Assembly: GCA_003554345.1 (NCBI GenBank)
Contig: PWGE01000038.1
Span: 1 to 6,880, forward strand
Length of the DNA stretch: 6,880 nucleotides
Source: T1SED10-198M sp003554345 [NCBI: Candidatus Sumerlaeota bacterium]
GTDB lineage: Bacteria > Sumerlaeota > T1SED10-198M
Direction: 5' to 3'
Shown: positions 1-6,880 of the stretch, in pieces
Position numbering within the stretch: the stretch's first letter is position 1
How the letters are laid out: each line of letters starts with the position of its first letter
Notes under the pieces: model-generated
The model's database searches: none
What the model was told of the DNA's origin: nothing
Seen by the model: only the letters and a program-made list of their open reading frames with translations
Program-made: the position numbers and the translations under genes

Positions 1-40
1 ATTCCAGTGGTAGGGGCAAACCTATGTGTTTGCCCTGTAT
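1..40. repeat. Interspersed hairpin repeat, copy 1
   Basis: This is a 40-bp unit that matches a second unit at 55-94 at 28 of 40 positions. Its core is an inverted repeat: GGGCAAAC (14-21), a 6-nt loop (22-27) and GTTTGCCC (28-35), a perfect 8-bp stem. With G15 bulged out instead, pairing can run outward to 10/38 using G-U pairs. No T-run follows on either strand, so it does not look like an intrinsic terminator. It resembles the short intergenic hairpin repeats (REP-like) of many environmental bacterial genomes; that comparison is from memory, not a search. Confidence 0.7.
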
Positions 41-54
41 TAATCTCCCCGATC

Positions 55-94
55 ATTTCAGCCGCAGGAGCAGACCTGCGTGTCTGCCCTGCTA
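55..94. repeat. Interspersed hairpin repeat, copy 2
   Basis: This is the second copy of the 40-bp unit, 54 bp after the first. GCAGG (64-68) and GCAGAC (70-75) pair with GTCTGC (82-87) and CCTGC (88-92), leaving A69 as a single bulge and a 6-nt loop CTGCGT. The stem is 11 bp and richer in G+C than copy 1. Differences from copy 1 in the stem preserve pairing: A19-T30 became G73-C84, and G10-T38 became G64-C92. This suggests that the folded form, as RNA or single-stranded DNA, is under selection. Confidence 0.72.
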
Positions 95-191
95 AATTGT
101 AACCCGGGAGTATAGAACTTGTAAGCAATATTTTTCTGTTTTAGTTGTTCTTCTTTTTCTGAATTCTTAAGGTATTTCTATTTTCAGAGGA

Positions 192-226
192 GTGCCATCC
201 TTACAGATATGGCACATATTTGTAAG
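192..226. repeat. Two overlapping, mutually exclusive inverted repeats
   Basis: Hairpin A pairs GTGCCAT (192-198) with ATGGCAC (209-215), a perfect 7-bp stem with a 10-nt loop. Hairpin B pairs CTTACAGATAT (200-210) with ATATTTGTAAG (216-226), an 11-bp stem with one G-T pair and a 5-nt loop. They share positions 209-210 as stem, and the loop of B is the rest of the right arm of A, so only one can form. The element lies 63 bp beyond the nitroreductase stop. Neither strand shows a T-run after it, so a terminator is not supported. A protein-binding dyad or 3'-end RNA structure is possible. Confidence 0.5.
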
Positions 227-288
227 CCTGACTAAACATCCATTTATCAGACAAACACGTGGTTCTCCACCACCAACCGTTGTTTTTC

Positions 289-912
289 TTACACAAAAGA
301 AGTAAAATCCATAACCTCGCGACGATACGCTCTGGGAAGGAGAGAAGCATCTTTCCTCATTTTTCCGATAGCAATCAACATGGGGATATATTTCTGAGAA
401 TCTACAGAGAATTCAGCTTTCACCTTTTCTTCGTCGAAACCATCCATGGGATGCGTTTCCAGGTCATACACTTGAGCCGCATACATCAAGCTCATAGCAA
501 AAAGCGAGGCATTTTTTGTGGCAAATAATCTTCGCTGTTCACTCTCCTTTTCCCCGTAAAGAGCGGCCGCTGTCTGACGCATTTGCTCTTTGTTTTCTTC
601 GGGGAAATAACCAAGTGACACCGCTTTATCAAGCACAGGCTCCAGATTTTTTTCGACTCCTTCATTATCGGCAATGACAATAAAAACAGCAGAGGCCTCT
701 TCAACCTTAGCCTGATTGAAGGCTAATTTGCGCAGAGCCTTTTTCCTCTCCGGACTTCGAACCACTATCAGTTGCCATGGCTGCAAATTTAAAGAAGATG
801 GCGTCAGATTAGCCAGGGAAATGACTTTCCTGAGGGTTTCACTTTCAATCACATACCGCGGATCAAAAAAGTTTATTGACCGCCTTTGATTTAGTAATTG
901 CTTCTCTTTCAT
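289..912 (-). CDS. Nitroreductase family protein (YodC/MhqN-like, FMN-dependent)
   Basis: This 207-residue protein has the pattern of the small NAD(P)H:FMN oxidoreductase family, which reduces nitro compounds and quinones as a cytoplasmic homodimer. Visible signatures are the N-terminal RRS (residues 10-12) that contacts FMN phosphate in the family, the P38-SSLNLQPW-46 segment, M156-DGFDEEKV-164 and the terminal I179-AIGK-184. The overall line-up (LNLQPW, FNQAKVEEASAV, NASLFAMSLMYAA, KYIPMLIAIGK) resembles Bacillus YodC and MhqN, which answer to quinone or electrophile stress; this is judged from memory. Length is normal. The start is supported by AGGAG (minus strand, 923-919) six bases upstream. 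It is transcribed away from the secretion operon and probably has no functional link to it. The true substrate cannot be read from sequence. Confidence 0.92.
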   Translation of the reverse strand: MKEKQLLNQRRSINFFDPRYVIESETLRKVISLANLTPSSLNLQPWQLIVVRSPERKKALRKLAFNQAKVEEASAVFIVIADNEGVEKNLEPVLDKAVSLGYFPEENKEQMRQTAAALYGEKESEQRRLFATKNASLFAMSLMYAAQVYDLETHPMDGFDEEKVKAEFSVDSQKYIPMLIAIGKMRKDASLLPRAYRREVMDFTSFV

Positions 913-993
913 TTTTTTCTCCTGTTCATATATTGGTGTGTAACAAACGAAATCACTTTCTTAATGCAACAGATTTTCCCGGGTTCAGATTCT

Positions 994-1021
994 AAAGTAC
1001 ATATATTACTTTCAATGTCAA
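994..1021 (-). promoter_or_regulatory. Candidate promoter of the nitroreductase gene with internal operator-like dyad
   Basis: Reading the minus strand, TTGACA (1021-1016) is a perfect -35 box and TACTTT (999-994) a weak -10 box, 16 bp apart. This would give a leader of about 75 nt before the start codon at 912. The spacer and -10 are covered by a dyad, AAAGTA (994-999), 7 nt, TACTTT (1007-1012), where a dimeric repressor could block RNA polymerase. A further TACT/AGTA half-site sits just upstream at 1021-1024. The boxes are read by eye; the weak -10 lowers confidence. Confidence 0.42.
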
Positions 1022-1325
1022 GTATATATCCGCAGCGCCAGTTAAACGTGCATGAAACATCCCCCGGATATTTTCAAACAATCATTCCCTTTTTGATAAA
1101 ACATGGAGGACTCTTACTCAGAGACTGCGGTATTTTCCCTGAGAAAATTTTTTCATACTTTTTGAAAAAACTCTTTCATCGCTTCTTTTTCATCTCATTC
1201 CAGGAAAAAATCCACCAGGCATGTCAGACCATTACTTACTTACTGATTTGAAAAATACAAAAATGTCTGTAAAGGATTCATCTTCTCTCTCCAAGCTGTT
1301 TCTGTAACAAGAGAAAGGTCACTGT

Positions 1326-1349
1326 GAAAGGAGGCTCATGTTTTGATAA
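1326..1349 (+). promoter_or_regulatory. Orphan strong Shine-Dalgarno with two-codon ORF and triple stop
   Basis: GAAAGGAGG (1326-1334) is the best SD in the window, but the ATG three bases later (1338-1340) reads Met-Phe and then three in-frame stops, TGA TAA TAA (1344-1352). It is not in frame with the gene at 1388. It may be a minimal leader ORF, the remnant of a lost gene start, or chance. It overlaps the -35 region of the promoter at 1343-1370, so a transcript from that promoter would not contain the SD; only a transcript starting further upstream would. Confidence 0.35.
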
Positions 1350-1370
1350 TAAGAAAAAAAAAACTACAAT
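1343..1370 (+). promoter_or_regulatory. Candidate sigma-70-type promoter of the gspF operon
   Basis: TTGATA (1343-1348) and TACAAT (1365-1370) each match the consensus hexamers at five of six positions and are 16 bp apart, with an A-rich spacer. Transcription would begin near 1377, leaving only about ten bases before the ATG at 1388. The transcript would be almost leaderless, with only AGGT (1380-1383) as a ribosome site. This is the best promoter-like pair I see ahead of the five-gene operon. Confidence 0.5.
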
Positions 1371-1387
1371 AATTATATCAGGTAAAA

Positions 1388-2404
1388 ATGTTTTCATTAA
1401 AAGTTCATAACACCTTTGTTCATCAACTAAAAAACTGTGTGAAAAGCGGTATTCCCATCATCCGCTCACTGGATATTCTTTCCGAGAACTCTCCCACCTA
1501 CCGCTTAAGAAAAACAGTCCGCAGGATGTCTGCTGATATTCAAAAGGGGTCCTCTTTTCATGAAGCTCTGGCAAAACACCACCGAAAATTTGACTCCCTT
1601 CTTATCAGCAGTATTGCAGCTGGTGAAAAAAGCGGTCAACTGGAAGAATTTCTTGATGAACTGGAACTGTATTACTCCAATGTTCTGGAAATCCGACGTC
1701 GTGCTATAGGTGAGCTTTTCTTTCCATTAATGGAATTAGCTCTCATGCTGGCTATTCTCATTGCTCTTCCTTCCATTATTGAATTTTTCATGAGACTATC
1801 GCCTGCTACCATAGAAGAGGTGCCTTTTTTCACCTTTTTGGTATATCTTCGACAAACAATACTCACGGTACTGGGAAGTATCATTCTTGTTCTGGTCATC
1901 CTACGACTTCTGTCTTTTTTCCCTGCGTTTAAAAACCTTTTTGACTTTTCCATTATTCGTATTCCTCTTACAGGGAAAATAGTGAAAAAAATATCGCTCT
2001 ACAAAATTCTCATGAGTTTTTCATTTCTTGCTAAAGGAGGGATGGATGTCCAGACGATGTTCAACCAGTCTGCTGACTCATGCCGTAACAGGTACCTGGC
2101 AAAAAAGTTTCGTCGTTCTTTAAGGGCCATTCAAAATGGAGGAAATATCAAGCAAGCGTTCCTCAGAAGTAATATTTTCCCCCCTCAGGTTATTGAAAGC
2201 GTCAATATTGGCGAACAAACGGGCAAACTGGATGAACAGCTTCAGAAAACAGCTCAACAAATGATTGAAGAGGTTTTTATGACCCTCAAGATTCTCCCCA
2301 AATTTATCACACCCCTTCTCCTGCTCCTGATGGGCTTACTGGTTCTCATGTTAGCCCTGGAAATATATATAAAACCCATCATTGACATAATGGAAAGGAT
2401 ATAA
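1388..2404 (+). CDS. Type II secretion / type IV pilus inner-membrane platform protein, GspF/PilC family, short form
   Basis: This 338-residue inner-membrane protein is the platform on which the assembly ATPase acts to build a pilus or pseudopilus. It has the family's duplicated T2SSF domain: first copy about residues 8-131 with A77-GEKSGQLEEFLD-90, second about 207-329 with I274-GEQTGKLDEQL-285. Membrane segments are near 113-133, 156-176 and 304-328. Typical members have about 400 residues; this one begins directly at the first T2SSF helix and lacks the N-terminal cytoplasmic extension of about 60 residues. No in-frame extension with a start and ribosome site is evident upstream, so the short form seems genuine. 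The SD at the ATG is weak (AGGT). It stops one base before the DUF89 gene and shares an operon with the ATPase at 3244. T2SS and T4P versions cannot be separated without the pilins. Confidence 0.9.
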   Translation: MFSLKVHNTFVHQLKNCVKSGIPIIRSLDILSENSPTYRLRKTVRRMSADIQKGSSFHEALAKHHRKFDSLLISSIAAGEKSGQLEEFLDELELYYSNVLEIRRRAIGELFFPLMELALMLAILIALPSIIEFFMRLSPATIEEVPFFTFLVYLRQTILTVLGSIILVLVILRLLSFFPAFKNLFDFSIIRIPLTGKIVKKISLYKILMSFSFLAKGGMDVQTMFNQSADSCRNRYLAKKFRRSLRAIQNGGNIKQAFLRSNIFPPQVIESVNIGEQTGKLDEQLQKTAQQMIEEVFMTLKILPKFITPLLLLLMGLLVLMLALEIYIKPIIDIMERI

Positions 2405-2405
2405 T

Positions 2406-3272
2406 ATGCGCAGTGAACTGGAGTGTCTCAATTGCATTTTACGACAGGGAATAACCACCACCCGCCTCACAGATTCAGAACCAGAGGTGCAATTCCAGGC
2501 TGTTCGGAAAGTCCTGAAATATCTTTCTACTATCACAGATCTTTCACCTTCTCCTGCCGAACTTTCCACCCCCGCCTACCGAATCGTTAAAGAGACTACC
2601 GGTAAACAAGATCCTTATCAAAAACTCAAAGAAGAATCCAGCAAACATACTAAAAATCACCTGGAAGAAATCGTTAAAATCATTCGTGAAAGCGACCAGC
2701 CCTTATGGACAGCAGGTCATCTGGCAGTTATTGGCAACACCATTGACTTCGGCATTTTTAAGGCAGAAGATATCAATATCGAAAAAGATCTGCTCACTAT
2801 GCTACGGCAACCACTGGCTATCGACGAATATTGTTATTTTGAAAAAATTCTTTCACAGAAGAAAGAACTTCTCTACATAACCGACAATGCCGGGGAAGTA
2901 TATTTCGATTATCTTTTCGGCAGAGAAATTCAACGTCACTTTCCTCACCTGAAAATCTATTTTGTGGTTCGTTCCGAACCCGTCATCAATGATGCCACCC
3001 TCAAAGAAGGACAGGAAGCAGGATTAGACACAATCGGCTCTATCCTCACTACAGGCAATGACGAAATAGGTTTACCCCTTCATAAAGCAGATTCAACAGT
3101 CCGGGAAATATGGAATAGAAACCCCGTTATCATTTCTAAAGGACAGGGTAATTTCGAAACTCTCAATCAACAACACGGTGATATTTTTTTCCTGTTAAAA
3201 GCCAAATGTTCCATTGTAGCCCACGAAATGGGAGTTAAGCTTTATGACGTGGTTTTTAAATACCGTCATTAA
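2406..3272 (+). CDS. DUF89 / ARMT1-like metal-dependent phosphatase, subfamily I type
   Basis: The 288-residue protein matches the DUF89 family, whose studied members are metal-dependent phosphatases proposed to remove damaged or overflow phosphometabolites. Visible hallmarks are the N-terminal C7-x-x-C10 followed by LRQ, typical of the prokaryotic subfamily; T159-DNAGEVYFDYL-170, holding the likely metal ligands D160 and N161; R189-SEPVIND-196 with D196; and S244-KGQGNFETL-253. It looks complete and soluble. The start follows gspF by one base (TAA-T-ATG) with AAAGGA (2394-2399) at ideal spacing, and the 3' end overlaps the ATPase gene by 29 nt, so it is embedded in the secretion operon and probably translationally coupled on both sides. 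No role for DUF89 in secretion is known to me; a nucleotide or phosphosugar substrate is only a guess. Confidence 0.85.
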   Translation: MRSELECLNCILRQGITTTRLTDSEPEVQFQAVRKVLKYLSTITDLSPSPAELSTPAYRIVKETTGKQDPYQKLKEESSKHTKNHLEEIVKIIRESDQPLWTAGHLAVIGNTIDFGIFKAEDINIEKDLLTMLRQPLAIDEYCYFEKILSQKKELLYITDNAGEVYFDYLFGREIQRHFPHLKIYFVVRSEPVINDATLKEGQEAGLDTIGSILTTGNDEIGLPLHKADSTVREIWNRNPVIISKGQGNFETLNQQHGDIFFLLKAKCSIVAHEMGVKLYDVVFKYRH

Positions 3273-5859
3273 ATATTCTCTTTTTATTTTACTGTGTTTT
3301 GCCTCACTCCCTTTATGCAGTGATGTGGTGATATTAACCAGCGGAGAAGTGATGGATGAGATTGAAATTCTGGAAGAAGCCGAAGACCGCTTAACAGTCA
3401 GAACCCGTCACACCACGATGGACATTCATCAAAACCGTATTCAAAGCTACGAAAAAGATGCAGAAAGCCGGCGCCGTTTTTTCCTGGGTAATGCCCGTTA
3501 TCATCTTGAAGCGGGTGAATGGCAAAAAGCCCGGGAAGAAGCCCGTCAGGCACTTGCTCTCCATCCTGATTGTGAAGAAGGATTTCAGCTCCTACGAGAA
3601 ATAGAAAAGTCCATCAGCGAAGAAAGAATGAAACAGCATATGAAGCTTCTGGAAGAGGCAAGACGTTATAAAGAAGCGGAATTGTGGGAGGACGCCCTTC
3701 CCCTGTATGAAGAAATACTCGACAACATTACCTTAGAAGACGCTCCCACTCTCTATCGGGAAACAACCAGAGAAATAGCCGTCGTTTATCTTCACGCTGC
3801 CAGGACATTGGTAGAAGAAAGTCCCCGGCAAATAACCGAATTGCAAAAAGCTCAGCAATTCTTAGAAAAAGTAATACAACATGATGACAATAATGCTGAT
3901 GCCTTCTTTCTTATGGGTATAACCGAAGAACTCCTCGACAGAAATGTCGAAGCCCTCCAGTATTATCAAAAAGCCCTGGAAATTGACAGCACTCATCAAC
4001 AAGCCCATGAAAATTTCTCAAGACTCTATTACCTGGCAGAACAGGAAGAGGATATCACTCTACCCGATCATCTCGCCGATCCTGACATTTTGCCTCCCGG
4101 TGTTTCTGCTCCCGAAGAAGAGCAAGAACCGGACTATTCTGAAAATAATCAAAACAATGGAGTGGCTGTTTCCGAAGCACTCCAGGAAGAAGAAGGAGGT
4201 CTTGCTATCAATAACATCATACCAGAAAACTTACAAGAGTATCTCTCCCTGGATTTTGCAAGGGAAATAATCGACATTGCCCAGCCCTTTGTAGAAGATT
4301 ACTGGCAGATAGCGCTTTTATTGGTTCTTTTTATCCTTATTTACTGGATCATACCGGTCAAGCATTTCGAGCGTAACGCGCTCAACAAACCTTTTTTCCT
4401 GAAATACAAGCGCTGGGTAAAAATACTGGGCATCTTCACGTATCTCTTTTATTTCTTTGAGCGTCTTAACCATATCTTTTCTTCCAGGGCCAAAAAGGGG
4501 GATTGCCCCTATTGTCGGTCTGATATCACAGATTTCTACAGCTGGACCAATTTTGACTTTGCCCATTGTCCCCATTGCGGTCATGAGTTTGAAAAGCCTT
4601 TTTTCAAGCCCAGGGATTACCTGTATGAGTTAGCCCACGATATGGCAGAAAAACAGGAGATTTATCAACAAGGCGACAAAGGAATGGGTAGTCTTGTAGA
4701 AAAAGAAAACATAACCTTTTTCATTCAGGCTGTCCTTTCCCTGGCCATAGACTTTCGCTCAACGGACCTTCATTTTGAGCCCTCTGCTGAATCGCTTAGA
4801 ATTCGCAACAGGGTGGATGGACTTTTATATGATTTGGTCCACATTCCAATGCCTCTCCATCCAGCCATTGTTTCTGCTTTAAAAATCAGGGCCTCTCTGG
4901 ATATATCCGAAAAACGCCGCCCTCAGGACGGAAAGTTCAGATTCGGCCGGGAGGGCACCTCCTATGATATCCGTATCTCCACCGCTCCCACCCAGTTTGG
5001 AGAAAAAGTAAACCTGAGAATATTACCCCGTCATCATACTATTTCTACTTACGCCGAACTCGGCATGGAAAAAGAAGATATTGAGAATATGAAGACCGCC
5101 GTTAACAAGAATTTAGGGCTGGTTCTCTCTACAGGACCAACTGGAAGCGGGAAAACTACCACCCTATATACCATTCTTCAACAACTTAATACCGGCGACC
5201 AGAATATTATTACTCTGGAAGATCCTATTGAATACGAATTTAAAGGTATCAACCAGATGCAGGTTAATCAATCAGCAGGTTTCACATTTGCCAACGGACT
5301 GCGCTCTATTTTACGGCAGGATCCCGACATTATTATGGTTGGTGAAATACGTGATACCGATACAGCGGAAATTGGCGTCAATGCTGCTCTAACCGGTCAC
5401 CTTGTGCTTTCCACACTTCATACGATTGATGCTGTATCTACTATTACCCGCCTTATTGATATGAATGTAGACAGCACCCTGTTTGCCAGTGCCCTGAATA
5501 TTATCATAGCCCAACGATTAATGCGGGTCAACTGCCAGTTTTGTACACAGCCTTACAAGCCGGAAACTCACCTTTTGAAAAAGCTGGGGATAGAAAACGC
5601 TGTTTCTACTGTGACCTTCCATAAAGGAACGGGCTGTGAAGAGTGCAATAATATTGGATACTTAGGGCGGACAGGGATTTTTGAAATTCTTGTTATTGAT
5701 GATAAAATAAAAGAACTTATAGAAAAGGAGGCGGGGCGTCAGAAAATCCTTGATCACGCTCAGTCGATGGGAATGAAAACCCTGAAGGAAAAGGCTCTCC
5801 ACAAGGTTTTTCAGGGGGTAACTACTGTCGAAGAAACAATTAGAGTGATAGGAGCTTAA
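3244..5859 (+). CDS. Membrane-anchored TPR / zinc-ribbon / GspE-PilB assembly ATPase fusion
   Basis: At 871 residues this is far longer than ordinary GspE or PilB (about 500-570). In order: a hydrophobic signal or anchor (about 7-25); a small beta-rich domain (27-70); about four TPR-like helical repeats (77-110, 134-167, 175-215, 218-255); an acidic, low-complexity linker (266-320); a transmembrane helix (353-371) followed by Lys/Arg; a hydrophobic stretch (392-412); a four-cysteine zinc ribbon (C421, C424, C442, C445); then the secretion ATPase core. The core has Walker A G631-PTGSGKTT-639, Asp box L658-EDPIEYE-665, Walker B I696-IMVGEIRD-704, His box with H719 and H726, and the GspE tetracysteine set (C764, C767, C798, C801). 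All catalytic motifs are intact, so an active hexameric motor is expected. The charge pattern puts residues 26-352 in the periplasm and the motor in the cytoplasm. The usual N1/MshEN domain is not recognisable. GGGAG (3230-3234) nine bases upstream supports the start inside the DUF89 gene. Confidence 0.9.
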   Translation: MTWFLNTVIKYSLFILLCFASLPLCSDVVILTSGEVMDEIEILEEAEDRLTVRTRHTTMDIHQNRIQSYEKDAESRRRFFLGNARYHLEAGEWQKAREEARQALALHPDCEEGFQLLREIEKSISEERMKQHMKLLEEARRYKEAELWEDALPLYEEILDNITLEDAPTLYRETTREIAVVYLHAARTLVEESPRQITELQKAQQFLEKVIQHDDNNADAFFLMGITEELLDRNVEALQYYQKALEIDSTHQQAHENFSRLYYLAEQEEDITLPDHLADPDILPPGVSAPEEEQEPDYSENNQNNGVAVSEALQEEEGGLAINNIIPENLQEYLSLDFAREIIDIAQPFVEDYWQIALLLVLFILIYWIIPVKHFERNALNKPFFLKYKRWVKILGIFTYLFYFFERLNHIFSSRAKKGDCPYCRSDITDFYSWTNFDFAHCPHCGHEFEKPFFKPRDYLYELAHDMAEKQEIYQQGDKGMGSLVEKENITFFIQAVLSLAIDFRSTDLHFEPSAESLRIRNRVDGLLYDLVHIPMPLHPAIVSALKIRASLDISEKRRPQDGKFRFGREGTSYDIRISTAPTQFGEKVNLRILPRHHTISTYAELGMEKEDIENMKTAVNKNLGLVLSTGPTGSGKTTTLYTILQQLNTGDQNIITLEDPIEYEFKGINQMQVNQSAGFTFANGLRSILRQDPDIIMVGEIRDTDTAEIGVNAALTGHLVLSTLHTIDAVSTITRLIDMNVDSTLFASALNIIIAQRLMRVNCQFCTQPYKPETHLLKKLGIENAVSTVTFHKGTGCEECNNIGYLGRTGIFEILVIDDKIKELIEKEAGRQKILDHAQSMGMKTLKEKALHKVFQGVTTVEETIRVIGA

Positions 5860-5860
5860 T

Positions 5861-6247
5861 ATGAAAAAAAACATTCATACATCTGTTCTTCCCCCCGCCA
5901 TAGGACCATACAGTTCCGCCGTTAAAGCAGGAGATTTTATTTTTCTCTCAGGACAAATCCCTTATCACATGGAAAAGAACACCATAATAACCGACAATAT
6001 AACTGAAGAATCTTATACTATCCTCAATAATATCCGTCATTTTCTGGACTCCCAGCAGCTCACTCTTTCAGACGTTGTTAAAACCACTATTTATATGACC
6101 GATCTTTCCCGGTTCAACCAGGTAAATACTGTTTATAACGAATTTTTTCATGAATCGTTACCGGCACGCAGTTGTGTGGAAGTAAACCGGCTGCCCAAAA
6201 ACGTTCATATTGAAATAGAGTGTATCATTTATGCCCCATCTGCATAA
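5861..6247 (+). CDS. RidA family reactive enamine/imine deaminase
   Basis: This 128-residue protein is a full-length RidA (YjgF/YER057c/UK114), a trimeric cytoplasmic enzyme that hydrolyses reactive enamines such as 2-aminoacrylate made by PLP enzymes. The active-site residues of the RidA subgroup are present: Y17 in A13-IGPY-17, S30 in L29-SGQIP-34, R103 in P101-ARSCVEV-108, C105, and E118 in H116-IEIE-120. The arginine needed for deaminase activity is therefore retained. The gene starts one base after the ATPase stop, with AGGAG (5850-5854) at good spacing, and overlaps the downstream regulator by 17 nt. RidA genes occur in many neighbourhoods, so placement here may be incidental; a link to metabolite repair shared with the DUF89 gene is speculative. 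Confidence 0.95.
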   Translation: MKKNIHTSVLPPAIGPYSSAVKAGDFIFLSGQIPYHMEKNTIITDNITEESYTILNNIRHFLDSQQLTLSDVVKTTIYMTDLSRFNQVNTVYNEFFHESLPARSCVEVNRLPKNVHIEIECIIYAPSA

Positions 6248-6880
6248 TATTAACACCAGCAAAATTCGCTGCCTTTTCGAAGTTCTTCAGGATATCAACG
6301 GACTTCTTCCCAGAGACGCCTTACTGGAAAAAATCGTCGTCCTGGCCACAACAGCGGGGGAAGCTCAGGCCAGTTCACTTATCCTCCTTGACGAAGACAA
6401 CCCTCAAAACCTTATATTTAAGGTAACAACCGGCTCCCGGGCTCCTCAAATAAAAAAAATACGCATGAAAACAGGACAGGGAGTAGCAGGCTGGGTGGTT
6501 CAAACAGGCAAACCTGCTATAGTCAATGAACCGCATGCAGACAGGAGATTTTTCAGGGAAGTTGCTGATAAGATCAACTATGAAACCTATAATATGATCT
6601 GCGTACCCTTAAAATATGGAGACAGAATTCTGGGCGCTTTGCAGGTCATAAACAAACATGACCGACAGCTTTTCACAGAATCCGACCAGTATCTTTTAGA
6701 GATATTTGCCAATCAGGCAACAAATGCCCTGCTCATTACAAAATCCATCGAGGAAAAGCAAAGTACTATCAATTCCCTGAAAAGTCGCCTGAAATCACTT
6801 CAAAAGCCGCCTATCTTTATTGGAAATGACCCTGCTGTTAAAAAAATACGCGAAATCATCAAGAAAGTGGCGCCTGCCGA
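6231..6880 (+). CDS. GAF-domain sigma-54-dependent transcriptional activator, N-terminal part (runs off window)
   Basis: The first 216 residues are visible. Residues about 11-172 form a GAF sensory domain (landmarks K80-TGQGVAGWVVQTGKPAIVN-99 and V125-PL...ILGALQVINK-142). A helical linker (172-192) follows, then the opening of the AAA+ activator module, F196-IGNDPAVKKIREIIKKVAP-215. This order is typical of NtrC-class enhancer-binding proteins, which act on sigma-54 RNA polymerase; the Walker motifs and the expected Fis-type DNA-binding domain would lie beyond 6880. The ATG lies inside the ridA 3' end, 17 nt before its last base, and is the first possible start because a TAG lies in frame at 6216-6218. 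No strong SD is seen, so it probably depends on coupling to ridA. The ligand is unknown; relatives such as PilR control pilin genes. Confidence 0.88.
   Translation, partial: MPHLHNINTSKIRCLFEVLQDINGLLPRDALLEKIVVLATTAGEAQASSLILLDEDNPQNLIFKVTTGSRAPQIKKIRMKTGQGVAGWVVQTGKPAIVNEPHADRRFFREVADKINYETYNMICVPLKYGDRILGALQVINKHDRQLFTESDQYLLEIFANQATNALLITKSIEEKQSTINSLKSRLKSLQKPPIFIGNDPAVKKIREIIKKVAPA

Follow-up and report, generated by a model that had tools for sequence, protein, structure and literature searches.

Can the motor ATPase of a secretion or pilus system anchor itself in the membrane and carry an arm beyond it, all within one chain? This question is raised by a gene of an uncultured Sumerlaeota bacterium (T1SED10-198M sp003554345, assembly GCA_003554345.1), which lies on the 6,880-nucleotide stretch analysed here (contig PWGE01000038.1, positions 1 to 6,880 of the forward strand; hereafter the window). 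The open reading frame (ORF) at 3244–5859 of the plus strand was found to encode one intact protein of 871 amino acids, with no start codon ahead of its ATG in the 879-codon open frame. The protein is a member of the GspE/PilB assembly-ATPase family with an intact motor. It is likely, in our judgement, that it is a bitopic form of that motor, self-anchored, with its N-terminal arm outside and its C-terminal ATPase inside, forming a ring under the platform protein GspF. The gene contained the following features:

3230–3234, plus strand: Shine-Dalgarno-like GGGAG, 9 nucleotides before the ATG (read from the sequence)
3244–5859, plus strand: membrane-anchored GspE/PilB-family ATPase, 871 amino acids (ORF, Pfam and PDB matches)
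3244–3321, plus strand: signal-peptide-like segment, residues 1–26, its own cleavage site ambiguous (hydrophobicity and signal rule)
3322–3450, plus strand: short segment DVVxLxxGxxxxGxI...I, residues 27–69 (strand-like by pattern only)
3451–4017, plus strand: TPR-like helical arm, residues 70–258 (Pfam, single-sequence fold, Foldseek)
4018–4293, plus strand: disordered linker, residues 259–350, acidic in the window protein (alignment, AlphaFold model)
4300–4356, plus strand: membrane helix TM1, residues 353–371 (hydrophobicity, alignment, flanking charges)
4408–4467, plus strand: second hydrophobic helix H2, residues 389–408, basic on both sides, probably in-plane (hydrophobicity and charge script)
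4504–4599, plus strand: zinc-ribbon-like module, residues 421–452, with C421, C424, C442 and C445 (alignment)
4699–5844, plus strand: N2E and C-terminal ATPase domain (T2SSE), residues 486–867 (Pfam, AlphaFold model, PDB matches)
5134–5160, plus strand: Walker A, residues 631–639 (translation, alignment)

An earlier reading of the window, made from its letters alone (hereafter the sequence-only reading), had proposed an intact GspE motor with Walker A at residues 631–639. In our study, the Pfam family T2SSE matched residues 486–867 with an E value of 9.9e-119 (396.7 bits against a curated cut-off of 24.9) and GPTGSGKTT was found at 631–639, which bears out the proposal. The residues E663, E701, D704, H719 and H726 were also present, followed by a C-terminal tetracysteine at 764/767/798/801; we take these to be the catalytic Glu/Walker B, the His residues and the tetracysteine of the C-terminal ATPase domain (CTE), respectively, and the motif at 631–639 to be Walker A. 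PilB/GspE chains in the PDB matched residues 486–869 with an E value of about 1e-106, and most ATPase blocks of the AlphaFold model had a predicted local distance difference test score (pLDDT) above 90. The proteins of 23 of the 28 Sumerlaeota loci (L009–L034, L036 and L038) were aligned; L022 and L033 (open at the 5' end), L026 (in-frame stop) and L034 and L038 (multi-TM start) were left out. All 23 aligned proteins matched T2SSE, and G631, K637, E663, E701, H726 and C764/767/798/801 were invariant in all 23 rows. The mean pairwise identity was 0.58 in the CTE, followed by 0.53 in N2E and 0.51 in the zinc-ribbon-like module (the ribbon), whereas it was 0.29 in TM1, 0.25 in the TM1-H2 loop with H2 and 0.16–0.24 across the arm and linker, taken part by part. 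The invariant motor residues, together with a CTE so much better conserved than the arm, suggest selection on motor function.

The same domain order, which the sequence-only reading had proposed to look for in other genomes, was found in the aligned Sumerlaeota proteins and in a second phylum. The 22 aligned orthologues, from 22 other genomes, were 30–35% identical to the window protein, and one of them came from a one-contig genome of 3.29 Mb (G001). Arm with linker, TM1, H2, paired CxxC and ATPase were present in one frame across the 23 proteins. Run over 386 genomes, a profile built from TM1, H2 and the ribbon matched 32 of the 40 Sumerlaeota genomes and, outside that phylum, 7 of 346. Each of the 32 contained one copy of the module (in G039, two pieces of one ORF). 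Of the copies known from the module only (e.g., in G009, G023, G030 and G039), that of G023 was read over a 12.6-kb stretch (L138). No match to the profile was found in the Sumerlaeota genomes G008, G025, G027, G029, G032, G034, G036 and G037; in G008, an ATPase fragment of 316 codons at the edge of a contig may be a truncated copy. Of the seven matches beyond Sumerlaeota, three were convincing (G182, G319 and G167; E value at most 3e-8) and four had E values of 3e-4 to 9e-4. In the phylum of G182, the second phylum of this text, the module was present in 9 of 14 genomes. Proteins were read from six of these nine: five contained a signal-like start and an arm, and L167 was truncated at the 5' end. 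At an E value of 0.001, all five proteins with a start matched T2SSE together with one or more TPR families.

In G167, outside Sumerlaeota, an armless anchored ATPase of 513 amino acids was found (L166, 5707–7245), with the membrane helix at its very start. Genes for a Colicin V production-domain protein (5062–5589) and an SMC_N-domain protein (3252–5006) were located near it.

A tree of 97 ATPase domains was examined for the origin of the anchored form. It contained anchored rows from 33 of 38 loci (L014, L026, L173, L174 and L175 were left out by the ORF filter), 26 of 28 canonical rows (L003 and L035 left out; one, L037, not from Sumerlaeota) and 38 of 40 rows of other ATPases. One clade, at 100/97, contained 32 of the 33 anchored domains and was split into a side of 26 Sumerlaeota domains and a side of 6 from the second phylum. 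The armless L166 was unplaced, and all 33 anchored rows as one side of a branch were found at only 28/91, which is weak. The 25 canonical Sumerlaeota ATPases fell outside the anchored clade. By this tree the anchored form arose long ago and did not come from a recent fusion to a local pilB, because its rows form a clade of their own and the canonical ATPases of Sumerlaeota fall elsewhere.

The sequence-only reading had also claimed a signal-like segment at residues 7–25 and one strong membrane helix at 353–371 followed by basic residues, and these claims agreed with our results. Hydrophobicity and signal-peptide rules were applied with simple home-made scripts, in place of a SignalP/TMHMM-type predictor. 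The Kyte-Doolittle peaks of the window protein were 1.87 at residues 7–25 and 2.44 at residues 354–372. TM1 was hydrophobic in all 23 rows (mean Kyte-Doolittle value 1.13–2.71 over the aligned stretch) and in most rows ended with W-x-x-P; the protein is thus not of the soluble or peripheral kind usual for GspE/PilB. As a control, 67 readable ORFs were taken from 80 loci kept from at least 593 matches to generic GspE peptides. Four of them (L039, L041, L048 and L060) contained a hydrophobic peak of at least 1.6 before Walker A, and only L039, from Sumerlaeota, combined such a peak with a paired CxxC; in L051 a single, unpaired CxxC was located right where the open frame begins. Over the 25 residues that precede TM1, the mean numbers of K+R and D+E per row were 3.3 and 3.7, respectively; they were 3.9 and 1.2 in the TM1-H2 loop and 4.7 and 0.65 after H2. 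These averages place the N-terminal side of TM1 outside, its C-terminal side inside and both flanks of H2 inside. The signal-peptide rule was satisfied in 20 of 23 rows and a hydrophobic start was present in 22, whereas none of six canonical ATPases run through the same script contained a strong h-region. Cysteine was rare in the arm and linker (0–1.6 per 1000 residues in the alignment), and the armless relative in G167 started with an acidic MDE before its membrane helix, as expected for an outside N-terminus.

Several observations weigh against this topology. L024, L031 and L013 failed the signal-peptide rule, L013 being devoid of any such segment in frame. In the second phylum, L171 passed it, L168 contained a strong h-region with no A-x-A-like site, and L170, truncated at an internal Met, scored low. 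For the window protein itself the rule placed the cleavage at residue 34, which is implausible; by eye, cleavage close to residue 26 looks more likely. H2 was strong in some orthologues (Kyte-Doolittle value 1.79 in L011 and 2.15 in L014) and could span the membrane there; a spanning H2 would put either the ATPase outside the cell, which we hold to be impossible, or the arm inside, which is unlikely. In the AlphaFold model of the 871-residue protein, the ATPase was mostly above a pLDDT of 90, whereas residues 240–420 and 423–441 were below 50, so that the model is uninformative on the anchor and most of the ribbon. The case for the topology is argued from signal-like starts, charges, a Cys-poor arm and secreted-type neighbours in two genomes. 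From these, the arm is probably outside the inner membrane and the ATPase inside. As to the proposal of a self-anchor and a periplasmic arm in one chain, the motor, anchor and arm were found in one ORF with orthologues, and the location of the arm is a sequence argument.

The arm was TPR-like, as had been claimed for residues 77–255: Pfam TPR families were matched between residues 83 and 268 of the window protein (TPR_2, E value 7.6e-9). No Pfam family matched residues 27–69, a segment that was helical at a pLDDT of about 70 in the single-sequence model; that model drew residues 33–90 as one long helix, which we distrust for 33–69. Folded alone and without an alignment, the arm was helical with a mean pLDDT of 86. 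Its best Foldseek match was BamD (rank 1, E value 9.1e-5), PilF was found at rank 20 (E value 2.6e-3), and designed TPRs were matched too; among the 50 matches listed, the TM-score by query length was 0.18–0.38, all of them weak. The arm was the least conserved part of the protein (16–24% identity between orthologues), and the commonest TPR families at an E value of 0.01 (TPR_16, TPR_19 and TPR_14) were each matched in only 4 of 23 rows. It was also modular. In one form, a strand-type segment was followed by a helical part; the segment was absent in, e.g., L027 and L028, and in at least two rows (L018 and L021) the segment and the Pro-rich linker were kept and the helical part was missing. The linker contained 17% proline over the 23 proteins, many rows being Pro-rich just before TM1. 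The name pilotin-like, given to the arm in the sequence-only reading, is not borne out, the structural matches being generic or weak and the arm so variable. No lipobox was seen by eye in the window protein; the orthologues were left unscreened for it. A multi-TM N-terminal region in place of the arm, followed by ribbon and ATPase, was observed in L034 (G031) and L038 (G011).

Three features came in addition to those of the sequence-only reading: the paired CxxC at 421–445, the weaker hydrophobic helix at about 389–408 and, two genes before the ATPase, a gene for GspF. The cysteines C421, C424, C442 and C445 (CxxC...CxxC, zinc-ribbon-like) were invariant in all 23 rows, and the ribbon is nearly as constrained as the motor, because its identity of 0.51 is close to the values of CTE and N2E. 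The docking domain MshEN (N1/T2SSE_N) was not detected by Pfam in the window protein, the full list of 17 families at an E value of 0.01 included, nor in eight further anchored proteins scanned, and it was not among the 25 families listed of the 34 matched in the 23 aligned proteins. It was present in all six canonical ATPases scanned from G000, the genome of the window, and G001. The PilT-type members are also without an N1 domain, so the lack of MshEN does not exclude the protein from the wider GspE/PilB family. Because the canonical ATPases scanned carry MshEN and the anchored ones scanned show none, we infer that TM1, H2 and ribbon may do in one chain the work that N1E and an adaptor do in two. 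Against such a replacement, PilM_2 proteins and canonical ATPases were still present in genomes with the anchored form, which means that the adaptors were not lost; each of six genomes searched contained 10–15 matches to T2SSF, 3–8 to secretin and 3–7 to PilM_2.

The genes upstream of the ATPase gene in the window form a tight run with it:

1388–2404, plus strand: GspF/PilC platform protein, 338 amino acids, two T2SSF stretches, candidate partner (Pfam; same gene run)
2406–3272, plus strand: ARMT1-like protein between the GspF and ATPase genes, overlapping the ATPase start by 29 nucleotides (Pfam)

The GspF at 1388–2404 is probably the platform partner of the ATPase in the window. Its open frame had 343 codons, the matches in other genomes being longer (mostly about 400–450). 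Against a general pairing, a simple scan of 20 other neighbourhoods found no relative of this GspF and no pilin-like motif. When co-occurring pilus genes were listed for the anchored loci, a GspF was close by only in the window; the pairing is therefore no general evidence. Two candidates were rejected. The window GspF was not a special orthologue, being only 22–31% identical to the GspFs of other genomes among the matches listed. Nor was a clustered type II secretion system (T2SS) locus found, since the ATPase family was present in all 21 neighbourhoods (the window and 20 others) and the next families in only 6, 5, 4 and 4 of them. In two genomes of the second phylum, the two genes upstream were those of a TPR protein and of a protein with an FGE-sulfatase domain, whose starts looked signal-like by eye (L164, 8512–10584, and L165, 10426–12656, each followed by the anchored ATPase); these are possible periplasmic partners. 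The ATPase gene of the window was closely flanked by the gene of the ARMT1-like protein, a damage-control protein (2406–3272), and that of a RidA-family (L-PSP) protein (5861–6247), the latter overlapped by a GAF-domain gene (6231–6880) that is ended by the contig edge. In G015, a second ATPase-family protein found by phmmer (L127, 394 amino acids) was located three genes after the anchored ATPase and is perhaps of PilT type. Elsewhere, adjacent divergent T2SSF matches with a GspE-type ATPase of 414–502 codons were found in G003 (C10, 258050–262504), G001 (C1, 1220969–1226168) and G004 (C11, 64347–67978), and several adjacent divergent T2SSF matches with no GspE-type ATPase listed beside them in G000 (C358); these clusters are possibly a further filament system.

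Three other explanations of the window protein were weighed. Two genes could have been joined near residues 320–420 by an error of assembly or binning, a condition under which the sequence-only reading would have given up its proposal. The window is the whole of a short contig from a genome of 454 contigs (88% complete, 4.3% contamination), a family of its own among the Sumerlaeota genomes compared. Such an error is refuted by the one-frame order in 23 proteins from 23 genomes, the one-contig genome included, and in the second phylum; the window protein also branched with the other Sumerlaeota copies in the tree at 100/93, and we give the artefact practically no weight. Because a comparable domain order recurs in orthologues of other genomes, the design is, by comparison of the sequences, real and neither chance nor a chimera. 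The arm of a real single chain could nevertheless be cytoplasmic, if TM1 and H2 entered the membrane as a hairpin whose two ends are on the inner side, and if the hydrophobic N-terminus did not work as a signal peptide. TPR proteins are often cytoplasmic, H2 is TM-like in L011 and L014, and L013 is without a signal-like start in frame. The loop of such a hairpin would be outside, yet it is the basic stretch described above (3.9 K+R against 1.2 D+E); the signal-like starts of 20 rows, the almost Cys-free arm, the Pro-rich linkers before TM1 in many rows and the secreted-type upstream genes in the second phylum also argue for an outside arm. A cytoplasmic arm is distinctly unlikely.

The ATPase could also have been borrowed by a membrane receptor. 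The chain would then be primarily a sensor of the envelope, a paralogue that assembles nothing itself and regulates or caps a different pilus motor. This would fit the 20 other neighbourhoods without a window-like GspF or a pilin-like motif, the lack of a neighbouring family shared by more than 6 of the 21 loci, the arms that vary between orthologues and the canonical ATPases that coexist. Motor motif residues that are invariant in 23 rows and a CTE of 58% identity over arms of 16–24% speak for a working motor instead, as does the GspF two genes away in the window, and we regard the receptor as unlikely. Under the self-anchored motor that we favour, each of six subunits would be anchored by its own helix, and these helices would hold the ring under the GspF platform, instead of or besides GspL/PilM adaptors. 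H2 would rest on the inner face of the membrane, the ribbon would be a docking or stator module, and the stretch 372–485 would provide slack for the ATPase strokes. By analogy with GspE hexamers, six arms would surround the platform, and each long-tethered arm might recruit or sense an envelope component such as a secretin, a pilotin, peptidoglycan or a secreted partner. More tentatively, and with less confidence than doubt, we suggest an old lineage of self-anchored motors in which six membrane tethers and periplasmic arms replace GspL/PilM and couple the state of the envelope to the GspE ring.

Studies of how the ring is anchored and how outside events reach the motor have usually relied on separate adaptors. 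In a natural single chain of motor, anchor and arm, the question of force anchorage would be isolated, since the chain would act as a covalent stator. The comparison also shows that the motor family has a transmembrane form, which has persisted in two phyla of uncultured bacteria and would go unnoticed in annotation based on T2SSE only. Twitching by type IV pili is mentioned in PMC8092238 for all the Sumerlaeota metagenome-assembled genomes of that paper, whose text is without the word PilB. No description of a GspE/PilB protein with a membrane helix and an arm was found among the open-access titles and abstracts listed, most subscription papers being outside the search, and the anchored form is apparently an undescribed variant.

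Among known systems, the TPR pilotins PilF/TadD and BamD are similar to the arm in their TPR fold (for TadD/PilF, as given in part of PMC10499894) and are its weak Foldseek matches. They are outer-membrane lipoproteins separate from any motor, whereas by eye the window protein is without a lipobox, and a specific link to them in sequence was not found. GspA/ExeA, an ATPase associated with the T2SS, likewise combines a membrane helix and a periplasmic part in a single chain; according to passages of PMC9239104, its AAA+ ATPase comes first, followed by the membrane helix and a periplasmic peptidoglycan-binding part, and it is thought to aid secretin insertion rather than to be an assembly motor. 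It is of another family and order, as T2SSE is at the C-terminal end of the window protein and Pfam found no peptidoglycan-binding domain in it. The likeness to the GspL and PilM-PilN adaptors is functional only, a membrane helix and a cytoplasmic part tethering a motor; they are separate proteins, each of the six genomes searched still has PilM_2 proteins, and no GspL/PilM-type domain was listed for the window protein in the Pfam scan. The sequence-only reading described GspE/PilB as cytoplasmic and docked on GspL or PilM, in agreement with passages of PMC6882859, where N1E of GspE binds GspL, and of PMC11656802, where PilB sits in a PilM socket. With known GspE and PilB (PDB 4KSS and 1P9R, and 5TSG, respectively) the window protein shares N2E and CTE, Walker motifs, His residues and the C-terminal tetracysteine. 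It belongs to the motor family by its sequence and lacks the N1 domain and the solubility usual in assembly ATPases: the known ones are cytoplasmic with N1/MshEN (parts of PMC6882859, PMC5013675 and PMC11656802), whereas the window protein, with no MshEN match, contains a membrane helix, a ribbon and a probable periplasmic arm instead.

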